Assembly: GCF_015679265.1 (NCBI RefSeq)
Contig: NZ_CP064942.1
Coordinates: forward strand, 3,390,001-3,454,000
Source: Pontivivens ytuae
GTDB taxonomy: Bacteria; Pseudomonadota; Alphaproteobacteria; Rhodobacterales; Rhodobacteraceae
DNA length: 64,000 nucleotides
Reading direction: 5' to 3'
Below are positions 46,926 to 49,615 of the stretch, piece by piece; within the stretch, counting starts at the first letter, position 1, and each line of letters begins with the position of its first letter. The position numbers and the translations under genes were made by a program. The notes beneath the pieces were generated by a model, which saw only the letters and a list, made by a program, of their open reading frames with translations, was not told the origin of the DNA and made no database searches.

Positions 46926-47946
46926 GCAGGGCCTCCAGGTAGAGGTTCTCGGTCGGGCTGCCGTCGTAGTTCTTGCCCGCGCCGTGCTCAAGCGTGATGT
47001 CGCGGAAGCCCGCGGCGCGAACGAGAGCGCGCAGCTCCTCGGCATCGTAATAGGTGTAGAGCCGATCCTGCGGGTCGCGGCTGGAGCCGGTGCCCGCCTT
47101 CAGCCCCAGATAGAGCCGCCCGCCGGGCGCGAGGGCCGCAGAACACGCGCTCAGGTGGCGGGGCATCCGGTCGCGGGGCGCGTGGAGCAGGGAGAAGAAG
47201 GCCCAGATCGCATCCAGCGTCTCGAACTCGTTGAAATCGGTGAACTCCGCGATCTCAACGTCGATGCCGTGGCGGAGCTTGGCCTGCGCCGCGAGGCCCC
47301 GGCTGCCGTCCATCGCGCGCACGCGAAAACCGCGCTGGCCCATCTTGGCCGCCGCCCAGCCGGTGCCGCAGCCGAGATCGAGCACCCGCGCGCCGGGCGC
47401 GAGCTTGTCCAGGAAGGCGGCAAGGCGGGGCGGTTCCGCCTCCGGCTCCGACCAGTCGGCGTAATCGGCGGCGTGGGTGTCGTAGAAGGCGAGCGTCCGG
47501 CCCGAGCGCCACGCAGCCCAGCTGCGCCGCAGAGCGTCGTGGCTCGGCGGCTGGCCCTCCCATTGCGGGACGCCCTCGATCAGCTGCACCCAGGGCAAGC
47601 GGGAGGCGGTCCAGAGCTCGGCCTGCGGCTCCAGCCCGTGGCCGGGATCGAGCGTGCCGCCCTTTATCGAGACGTAGTCGGCGCCGCTGGCGGAGACATG
47701 CATGATCCGCACGCCGCAAACGGGGCAGAAGCGCCGGATGACCTCCTTCCCGCTCGCGGCCCGGCTGCGCCACTCGGCGAGCTCCCCGGTGATCTCGATA
47801 TCGTCGAGGCGGACATAGAGCGAGAGGCCGAAGGCCGAGCCGCTCTGCTTCTGGCAGTCGGTGCAATGGCAGCGGGCGAAGCCCAGCGGCTCCCCCGTAA
47901 TGCGGTAGCGCACCACGCCGCACTGGCAGCCTCCGGTCAGGCTCAT
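46918..47946 (-). CDS. GFA (CENP-V) domain fused to SAM methyltransferase
   Basis: A 342-residue two-domain fusion. Residues 1-115 form a GFA/CENP-V zinc domain with Cys7, Cys9, Cys26, Cys28, Cys31, Cys74 and Cys77 (GGCQCG, RCHCTDC, FCPVCG). Residues about 150-340 are a class I methyltransferase with motif [17 protein letters not shown]. There is no stop or frameshift between them, so it is one product in this genome. GFA domains are linked to formaldehyde or glutathione adducts, but function varies. The ATG overlaps the DUF3429 stop and the 3' end overlaps rnhA. Confidence 0.87.
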
Positions 47947-48398
47947 GCGAAGGCTCCGATCAGGAGGCAGGCGCAGACGACGATGGTCAGCGGGATGCGC
48001 AAGCTCAGCCACCACCAGACCACGATGGTGCGCTTGGCGAACAGGCTGTCGATCAGCAGGAGTCCCGCGAAGGCGTAGGTGAGCAGGAGGCAGGAGGCTG
48101 CGGGATCGTTCGTGAGGCCGAAGAAGATGGCGAGCGGCGGTGTGACGCTGAGCCCCAGCTCCACCCACGACGGCTTGCGCCCGTGCCGCGAGGCGAAGCC
48201 CCAGAGGCAGCCCGCCATGAAGCTCAGGATGATCGTGCCGTAGCGCTCCAGCAGCAGGCGCCCGCCCTCGGGCTCGCTGATGAAGAAGCCGTAGAGCGGC
48301 ACGGTGCCCGGCGGCAGAAGAACGAGTGCCGCACCGCCGAGGAACGGCAGCAACCCGGCGAAACCGAGGATCAGGGCAGGGGTCGGTATGTCACGCAT
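47943..48398 (-). CDS. DUF3429 membrane protein
   Basis: A 151-residue protein with four to five membrane helices. The start MRDIPTPALILGFAGLLPFLGG, the segment GTIILSFMAGCLWGFAS and the C-terminal WWWLSLRIPLTIVV are typical of DUF3429 (related to eukaryotic TMEM69). Function is unknown. It is the first gene of a DUF3429, GFA-methyltransferase, rnhA run. Confidence 0.83.
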   Translation of the reverse strand: MRDIPTPALILGFAGLLPFLGGAALVLLPPGTVPLYGFFISEPEGGRLLLERYGTIILSFMAGCLWGFASRHGRKPSWVELGLSVTPPLAIFFGLTNDPAASCLLLTYAFAGLLLIDSLFAKRTIVVWWWLSLRIPLTIVVCACLLIGAFA

Positions 48399-48427
48399 CG
48401 TGCGCTCCGCTGGGTCTGCCCTTGGCT

Positions 48428-48453
48428 ATATAGCGGCGGCGAGCGGAAACAAG
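48428..48453 (-). promoter_or_regulatory. Possible promoter of the DUF3429 operon
   Basis: On the minus strand CTTG (48453-48450) and CTATAT (48433-48428) are separated by 16 bp and end 29 nt before the DUF3429 ATG. The pattern resembles RpoH-type promoters of Rhodobacter and could equally be a weak sigma-70 promoter. This is sequence resemblance only. Confidence 0.3.
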
Positions 48454-48497: not shown

Positions 48498-48766
48498 GGC
48501 CGGAGCCCGCCCCCGCGGTGCTCCGGCCCCTGATCTGACCGGTCGGATCCACCCCTGGCTCCGCTCCGGTATCCGGTTGGGAGCCCACCCCTGGCCTCCC
48601 GTCCCGTGTCGGCGCCGCATCGGATCCCACCCGGATCCTGCTGGCCGCCATCTGGTCGAGAGCCCACCCCTGGTCTCTCTCCCGATCCTGTCGCGGTGCC
48701 GGAGGCCCACCCCTGGTGCCTCCTTCCGCTTCGGTTGCCGCCCGAACGTCCCCACGCCCGGGCGGC
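48498..48766. other. Array of seven stem-loops with conserved C-rich loops
   Basis: Gap 48399-48896 has no convincing gene, but seven successive hairpins: GGCCGGAGC/GCTCCGGCC (48498-48528), CGGA/TCCG (48544-48563), GGGAG/CTCCC (48579-48600), GGATCC/GGATCC (48622-48638), GAGAG/CTCTC (48658-48679), GGAGG/CCTCC (48701-48723) and GCCGCCCG/CGGGCGGC (48737-48766). Numbers 2, 3, 5 and 6 enclose the same loop core CCACCCCTGG while the stems differ in a compensatory manner, a signature of selected structure. Overlapping ORFs on either strand lack a credible start or family. The layout recalls tandem CcsR sRNAs of Rhodobacter but with a different loop sequence. Confidence 0.7.
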
Positions 48767-48896
48767 TCCCCCTCCTGGCGGTGCGGACCCCCATCCGCGT
48801 CCCGCCTGTCGAAAGAGCAACGGGGAACCCGAAAAAAGGTTGCGGAGGACGTATCTTCAATTCTCGCGAAGTTCCGGACGGGCGGATGGAACCCCG

Positions 48897-49505
48897 TCAG
48901 CGGGTCTCGCTCGCCAGACGCAGCGCCAGCCCGCCGAAGGCCGCGGCGAAGACCCGGCGCAGCCAGCGCATGGCCGCCGCGTTGCCGAGGATCTGGCTGC
49001 GCGCAGCTGCAGCGAAGACGGCATAGAGCGCGAAAACCGCCGCCGTCATCACCGTGAAGACGAGGCCGAGCAGCGCCATCTGCGCCGTCGCATTGCCCGC
49101 CGCCGGATCGACGAATTGCGGCAGGAAGGCGAGGAAGAAGATCGAGAGCTTGGGATTGAGCACGTTGATCAGCGCGCCCCGCACTGCGATCCGGACAAGC
49201 CCGCGCGGCGCCTCCGGCCCGTCACCCGCCGTCCCCGTCTCCTTCAGCGTCTTCCACGCCATCCACAGAAGGAAGATCACGCCCGCATACTTCACGAGCT
49301 GGAAGGCGACGGCACTCGCATGCAGGATCGCGGCGAGGCCCAATAAGGCGGCCGCAAGGTGCGGCACGATCCCGAAGGAGCAGCCGACGACCGCGGCGAG
49401 ACCCGGGCTCAGGCCCCGGCCGAGCGAGACCGACAGGGTGTAGAGCACCCCGGTTCCCGGAGCGATCACGACGATCAGTGCCGTCAGCAGGAAGTCCACG
49501 CCCAT
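48897..49505 (-). CDS. LysE/RhtB-family amino-acid exporter
   Basis: A 202-residue membrane protein with six predicted helices. The signature region is MGVDFLLTALIVVIAPGTGVLYTLSVSLGRG with GLAAVVGCSFGIVPHL; ALINVLNPKLSIFFLAFLPQFV follows. The ATG at 49505 has an AGGAG ribosome-binding site 8 nt upstream; the ATG at 49520 is less likely. It is divergent from the DUF2182 gene. Confidence 0.9.
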   Translation of the reverse strand: MGVDFLLTALIVVIAPGTGVLYTLSVSLGRGLSPGLAAVVGCSFGIVPHLAAALLGLAAILHASAVAFQLVKYAGVIFLLWMAWKTLKETGTAGDGPEAPRGLVRIAVRGALINVLNPKLSIFFLAFLPQFVDPAAGNATAQMALLGLVFTVMTAAVFALYAVFAAAARSQILGNAAAMRWLRRVFAAAFGGLALRLASETR

Positions 49506-49615
49506 TGGTCCACTCCTCATGTCGGGGATGCCGCAGCATGGCACGGATCAGCCGCCCTGTCAGCGCGCAGGTCGCGGTCGGCAAATTGGATTTGCGTTTC
49601 AAAGCTTGCAGGGCG

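Follow-up and report, generated by a model that had tools for sequence, protein, structure and literature searches.

Among described bacterial RNAs, the closest counterparts of the locus analysed here are the CcsR1-4 or cuckoo RNAs (CIN1) of Rhodobacter sphaeroides, in which serial hairpins on variable stems display a constant C-rich loop (CCUCCUCCC) and to which RS0680a belongs. According to the excerpted text of one report, each of the two loops of RS0680a carries an anti-Shine-Dalgarno motif (PMC3927594); in that of another, an RpoHI/HII promoter drives a transcript shared by a DUF1127 gene and the CcsR RNAs, with a Rho-independent terminator at its end (PMC10253847). SmelA075 and SmelA099 of Sinorhizobium meliloti have three and four hairpins, respectively, with CCUCCUCCC loops and variable stems; the SmelA075 transcript was detected, and the excerpt makes no mention of a 40-nt period for either RNA (PMC3927594). 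In Caulobacter crescentus, the C-rich hairpin loop of GsrN, its single such loop and located 5', pairs to a G-tract of katG mRNA; GsrN is under sigma-T control, and its homologs typically lie near general-stress regulator genes, according to the part of the source available (PMC5869019).

The locus described here, an array of eight C-rich-loop hairpins flanked by LysE and DUF3429 genes, was found in a 64-kb stretch ("the window"; C1:3390001-3454000) of the 4.2-Mb single-contig genome of Pontivivens ytuae. In our best reading, the array would be a lineage-restricted multi-hairpin noncoding RNA, acting through C-loop/G-tract pairing or as a multivalent binding platform. Like the CcsR/cuckoo RNAs, it is alphaproteobacterial and combines several hairpins, a constant loop and variable stems; a sequence-only reading of the window had drawn this parallel while calling the loop different, and both points hold, as the array has CCCC, CACCC and CCCCCA loops and contains neither the CCUCCUCCC loop sequence nor CCTCCTCCC. 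The neighbours differ as well: an upstream DUF1127 gene and a terminator mark the CcsR locus, whereas DUF3429 and LysE flank the array, which has no clear terminator. The SmelA RNAs resemble it in their serial same-loop hairpins and differ in their anti-Shine-Dalgarno loop and fewer units (PMC3927594, in part), and GsrN presents one C-rich loop where the array has eight units (PMC5869019, in part). By analogy, the array looks like an undescribed cousin of stress RNAs with C-rich hairpin tips, for which the CcsR/cuckoo RNAs would be an apt working model. No C4-tetraloop array is named in the titles and abstract openings of open-licence PMC papers, and Rfam 15 returned no match in the window at the gathering threshold; the only match up to E 1, mir-1909 (22.8 bits against a gathering score of 80), was taken as chance.

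Type III (ToxI-type) antitoxin RNAs also consist of tandem structured units, of about 36-45 nt. This identity was rejected, with no ToxN-like gene beside the array and no PADLOC match, as was a cluster of intrinsic terminators, given that T-runs follow none of the hairpins on the plus strand and one, weakly, on the minus strand.

The features of the locus are collected in Table 1. GC content across the 700 nt upstream of DUF3429 is 0.70. The gap had been described as gene-free. Open frames span it, including one of 276 codons across the array, but four of these had no Pfam match and the two searched against a protein collection had no relative at E<=0.001. A coding repeat is further disfavoured by the spacings between copies of the recurrent motif CCACCCCTGG (36, 79 and 43 nt), two of which are not multiples of 3. 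The RpoH-like promoter is directed at DUF3429 rather than at the array. Its pattern was also matched at DUF3429 in one genus mate (G002) and unmatched in two others (G001 and G003) and in G018; upstream of DUF3429, G001 and G003 have in common a related block, CTTGTCCA...GCGTGTAGCGAAGGGG (by eye), within which G001 carries a 7-bp CCCC hairpin. Promoters of G000 and G001, when compared by eye, showed suggestive AT-rich ends, too slight to rely on.

Table 1. Coordinates, in the window, of the hairpin array and the features around it.
Feature	Position	Strand	Description	Basis
DUF3429 (PF11911) gene	47943..48398	-	Transcribed away from the array; positional anchor for comparisons	
RpoH-like promoter of the DUF3429 gene	48426..48453	-	CTTG-N17-TATATA type; RpoH is presumed as the sigma factor	Pattern match
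Terminator-like site	48513-48496	-	Weak; overlaps H1	
H1	48498..48528	read on +	Outer stem of 9 bp and inner stem of 4 bp, separated by a T bulge; CCCC loop	Local fold
H2 with outer extension	48538..48570		Core 48544-48563 CGGA t CCA-CCCC-TGG c TCCG; CCACCCCTGG at 48549-48558	Local fold
H3 with outer extension	48574..48606		Core 48578-48601 TGGGAG c CCA-CCCC-TGG c CTCCCG; CCACCCCTGG at 48585-48594	Local fold
H4	48622..48638		GGATCC-CACCC-GGATCC; sole unit of the eight without CCCC in its loop	Local fold
H5	48658..48679		GAGAG c CCA-CCCC-TGG t CTCTC; CCACCCCTGG at 48664-48673	Local fold
H6	48701..48723		GGAGGC CCA-CCCC-TGG (T bulge) GCCTCC; CCACCCCTGG at 48707-48716	Local fold
H7	48737..48766		Outer stem of 8 bp, AA/CC internal loop (2x2), inner helix CGT/ACG; CCCC loop	
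H8	48777..48806		11-bp stem, 2-nt bulge, loop CCCCCA	Local fold
LysE-type translocator (PF01810) gene	48897..49544	-	Other flank of the array	

Local folding (pair span <=36 nt) gave eleven hairpin loops in the gap, eight of them C-rich (48498-48806; CCCC in 7/8, CACCC in the other), with three small hairpins (loops ATCT, CCT and CTT) interspersed among the C-loop units. The array of seven hairpins previously proposed is thus real but has eight C-loop members, H8 lying beyond 48498-48766. Its description as successive stem-loops holds for the local fold, which forms every one, but not for the unconstrained 391-nt plus-strand fold, the minimum-energy structure of which closes 6/8 loops rather than all eight at once. 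Consecutive C-loop centres are separated by 41, 36, 40.5, 38.5, 43, 40 and 39 nt (mean 39.7, sd 2.2, range 36-43). H2, H3, H5 and H6, as well as a further copy near trpF, have one plan in common, namely a 4-6 bp outer stem, one mismatch or bulge, CCA/TGG and CCCC. As claimed, the core of these four array hairpins is invariant and their differing stems (CGGA/TCCG, GGGAG/CTCCC, GAGAG/CTCTC and GGAGG/CCTCC) remain paired; the view of the whole of CCACCCCTGG as loop has to be abandoned, as CCA and TGG form an inner 3-bp helix that closes a CCCC tetraloop, with only CCCC unpaired, followed by a pyrimidine mismatch or bulge and the variable outer stem. H1 and H7 set CCCC atop inner helices other than CCA/TGG. 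The seven spacers are slightly alike (35/1000 shuffles do as well), and Tandem Repeats Finder reported no repeat for the array.

The array is a real and unusual feature, for which a chance origin is unlikely. The window holds only four copies of CCACCCCTGG, against a shuffle mean of 0.15 (0/100 shuffles reach four). CCCC tetraloops with at least three inner pairs number 6 in the gap (shuffle mean 1.09; 0/1000 reach 6), and those with at least six pairs, one mismatch being allowed, number 3 (mean 0.17; 1/1000 reaches 3); of the 256 tetramers, CCCC alone appears more than once as a loop closed by at least five pairs, and does so both here and in the corresponding gap of G001. In 20 stretches of 20 kb from the same genome (400 kb, both strands, 117 C-loop hairpins), the maximum density was two C-loop hairpins per 320 nt, compared to six in the array under a rule that misses H4 and H7. 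Spacing as even as that of the array was so rare that its share of 200,000 random-gap placements prints as 0.0000 (fewer than about 10), a test that is descriptive, the hairpins having been partly selected by their C loops. The four CCACCCCTGG copies, by contrast, were selected without regard to stems, and their flanks pair 4, 6, 5 and 6 bp, as compared to random places in the genome, where pairing of at least 4, 5 and 6 bp occurs in 8.3%, 3.4% and 1.4% of draws. Arm swaps between the copies pair a mean of 2.9 bp, with at least 4 bp in 4/12 combinations because the stems are related, as expected of diverged duplicates. In an alignment of seven hairpins from two species, all 10 pair positions vary on both sides and 77% of cells pair (50% when shuffled, 27-43% when slid), although this comparison is biased by the picking of hairpins for their pairing, and of its five measures, two fall short of being extreme (reached by 18/500 and 61/500 shuffles).

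Three genus mates were compared at DUF3429, the protein of which matches that of the window at 67%, 73% and 62% in G001 (of the Pontivivens nitratireducens type; L053), G002 (L055) and G003 (L054), respectively; L053 and L054 were assigned to their genomes by identical hairpin sequences, and L055 by identical upstream sequence. The G001 gap upstream of DUF3429 folds unusually well (z -4.05) and carries CCCC hairpins at L063 2204 and 2241 (strong) and 2146 (weaker), with stem letters unrelated to those of the array. A fourth, at 1986, lies in the spacer of the likely DUF3429 promoter (by eye) and may have another cause than the array hairpins. With this one set aside, G001 has 2 C4 tetraloops with at least six pairs (mean 0.029; 0/2000 shuffles reach this) and 3 with at least three inner pairs (mean 0.187; 2/2000 reach this). 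Other hairpins of the gap have loops such as CATT, TTCT and GACA, which makes G001 less uniform. G003 has a single hairpin with a six-C loop in a fold that is not unusual (z -1.27). No array was found at DUF3429 in G002, where a PEP carboxykinase gene adjoins, or in G018, the best DUF3429 match outside the genus, where lysE-like sequence lies beside it (by eye). Absence from relatives had been proposed as an argument for chance or a mobile repeat, and the outcome is mixed: the CCCC hairpins persist in G001, but G003 keeps only the one loop and G002 none, and gap DNA searched against 61 genomes matched its own copy and, in the 60 relatives, 25 nt of one (G008).

The core is not restricted to the array: genome-wide, CCACCCCTGG has 11 exact matches (8 forward, 3 reverse; 3 + 3 for the reversed control pattern), four of which lie in the array. 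One at C1:1185059, downstream of trpF (PRA isomerase by Pfam), has the same hairpin and plan (GGCGG t CCA-CCCC-TGG c CCGCC) and is crossed by a 502-codon open frame, with two further C-rich-loop hairpins nearby (by eye); another, at C1:1583730, lies within an open frame of 225 codons and has a five-pair flank and a weaker hairpin. The remaining five, with 1, 1, 2, 4 and 2 flank pairs, fold differently. Across the four genus genomes, the trpF site of G002 has an 11-bp hairpin with a CCCCAC loop and, 36 nt on, a second with CCCCACT (by eye), whereas the printed trpF-trpB gap of G001 and G003 contains no CCCC. Two places in the genus thus seem to gain and lose C-loop hairpins. Separately, about 130 nt between trpF and trpB (the latter recognised by eye) are strongly alike in all four genomes (L118-L121; CACACGCGGCAGGACGCACCACCGACCTGCCTATCG and others, by eye) and include a GC hairpin and T-run that would terminate a transcript on the strand opposite trpF. 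This stretch has no Rfam match at gathering scores (chance-level E 0.12 in 2/4 loci) and resembles an undescribed, conserved small RNA.

Wider searches returned scattered C-loop hairpins. Counts of C/G runs in the 700 nt upstream of DUF3429 covered loci from 29 of 33 matching relatives, eight of which were inspected beside the window's own. A scan of 84 loci (L002-L086 without L033, own and LysE paralogue loci included) was notable at DUF3429 for G001 (L053; three hairpins on one strand) and G003 (L054; one), with scattered matches in many loci, up to four in L041, and a few of them near the start of DUF3429 (such as L011 and L084). A covariance model, R1, built from seven hairpins of the array and G001, recovered in the window the four hairpins on which it was trained and, at E 0.08, H6, which had been left out of training; three further matches were at chance level, and H1, H4 and H8 were missed. 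Its 24 matches in the genus include the array, the trpF copy and three G001 training hairpins; the remaining 15 fall within frames 240-770 codons long, although at such GC long frames are weak evidence of coding, as the array and the trpF copy are themselves crossed by them. In the family, R1 gave 50 matches at E<=0.1, spread over 40/295 genomes and including five in the own genome. Three C4 hairpins per 320 nt occur in none of 29 family loci (L122-L150, with L137 truncated at the end of its contig); the three of L130 are spread across 1,008 nt, and L122, L123 and L136 have two each, the L136 pair 26 nt apart. In L123, a perfect 10-bp C4 hairpin precedes CTTTT, so that the C4 loop also occurs in a likely terminator. 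L122, from the fragmented genome of G007, has GGGCCGGTCGTGGCCCT-type words recurring around its best match, perhaps a dispersed repeat of that species. The double pattern CCACCCCTGG-N16-46-CCACCCCTGG occurs in 3/385 class genomes, own included; the other two cases fall in long open frames, HTH protein-like and sulfatase-like by eye, and were set aside. The former (L191 of G476, a 403-codon frame) has in-frame repeat DNA that forms CCACC(C)CTGG hairpins and was taken as coding and unrelated. If the array is transcribed, RNAs of this kind would elude both blastn and Rfam wherever nothing but the loop and the pairing is conserved.

That the gap encodes a structured noncoding multi-hairpin RNA, with a functional C-loop RNA from the plus strand, is given a probability of about 0.45. 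None of 100 dinucleotide shuffles folds as well (z -5.49 on plus, -5.94 on minus). The earlier proposal of a new multi-hairpin RNA or an array of protein-binding sites is best supported as to the structured RNA, and only partly supported overall, as no sigma-70-like promoter was found around the array on either strand and only the one weak terminator-like site appeared (none on plus; 1 found against a shuffle mean of 0.3). In the 391-nt fold, closing-pair probabilities on the plus strand range from 0.30 to 0.99, with H3 at 0.30 and H6 at 0.31, while 7/8 closing pairs reach at least 0.89 on the minus strand, a comparison that lowered the plus-strand estimate from 0.50 to 0.45. The strongest alternative, though unlikely, is function on the minus strand, where A-GGGG-U loops in an independent RNA, or in the 3' region of lysE, would form a G-rich hairpin array (protein-binding sites or G-quadruplex-prone RNA) that would end at the strong H1. 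In keeping with this, lysE, the array and DUF3429 are colinear on the minus strand, as are the LytB/ispH gene and DUF3429 with the G-loop strand of G001; the minus fold is slightly better relative to shuffles, the sole terminator-like site lies on that strand, and H7 is fully paired only there, its internal loop turning into two G.U pairs (by eye). Against it, H2 does not form on the minus strand (0.00), and the G001 hairpin at L063 2204 forms in the local plus fold but not in the minus fold; internal U.G pairs keep the stems of H8, of that G001 hairpin and of the G002 trpF-side hairpin intact on plus only (by eye), the terminator score is near the shuffle rate, and the known loop-seed RNAs, GsrN and SmelA075/SmelA099, have C-rich loops in the excerpts of their sources.

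It is improbable that the array is a selfish or REP-like palindromic repeat, locally multiplied and devoid of a regulatory role, with template-switch mutation at quasipalindromes maintaining its pairing. Together with their 5' spacers, H3 and H5 are indeed 82% alike across 33 nt, a single copy sharing the core is found downstream of trpF, the trpF site of G002 also bears a C-loop hairpin, and the four R1 matches in G007 possibly belong to a dispersed repeat of its own; yet only one further strong CCACCCCTGG hairpin exists in 4.2 Mb, the 400-kb sample held no extra array, plasmids and phages gave no match to gap DNA at E<=1e-5, and CCCC recurs in G001 although the stems differ. A CcsR/cuckoo (CIN1) member that lost its DUF1127 gene would account for the shared plan, but this is very improbable: the array has no CCTCCTCCC and no adjoining DUF1127 gene (this genome has its six DUF1127 matches at other places), and DUF1127 genes occur elsewhere in all four genus genomes, with adjoining TCCTCCC-loop hairpins in G001 (L172), G002 (L178, also with a CCTCCTCCC hairpin) and G003 (L171). 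These DUF1127 loci are probably the cuckoo/CIN1 loci of the genus, with the hairpins following the gene; in the window's own genome (L180), a long hairpin with the C-rich tip CATCCCTCCCTGAACCTCC follows DUF1127. The word CCTCCTCCC is useless by itself as a CcsR test, since it occurs 178 times genome-wide, against 175 for its reversed control. Equally remote is the idea of a GC-rich gap that merely happens to fold: high GC makes hairpins common, and R1 matches outside the own genome (45 in 294 genomes at E<=0.1) do not far exceed the roughly 29 expected from rough E-values, but the shuffle, density and spacing controls and the G001 hairpins speak against it.

On the preferred plus-strand reading, a hairpin unit of about 40 nt would have been repeated eight times, its spacers and stem letters diverging while pairing and the C4 loop were kept. 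If the strand with CCCC loops is transcribed, every hairpin would display the same short C-rich seed and could bind G-tracts in mRNAs, such as AGGGG Shine-Dalgarno-type sites; alternatively, many RNAs or loops held by an RNA-binding protein would make it a sponge or platform that draws its strength from copy number. Of 168 roughly called genes, 16 are preceded by AGGGG, which is present at 2/168 farther upstream (GGGG, 29 against 15); the main Shine-Dalgarno word, GGAG, found in 55/168, has no match to CCCC. That C4 matches AGGGG and not the commoner GGAG favours a protein partner or pairing to a subset of G-tracts over a role as a general anti-Shine-Dalgarno element. The covariation claimed within the locus is real but moderate, since quasipalindrome-templated mutation could also give compensated changes between duplicated copies. 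A bolder and rather doubtful proposal is that the array represents a noncoding RNA of a new kind, restricted to this lineage: eight C4-tetraloop units of 40-nt period in which the exposed CCCC is the sole conserved feature, serving as a multivalent sponge for G-tract RNAs or a C-loop-binding protein, with stems rebuilt from entirely different sequence in sister species. If the array is transcribed, the range of C-rich-loop RNAs in alphaproteobacteria would widen from the CCUCCUCCC cuckoo RNAs to a minimal C4 loop, displayed up to eight-fold, and the genus would provide a graded set of natural variants (eight units here, one sister species with two or three, and another with none at the locus) in which seed copy number may be related to sponge strength.
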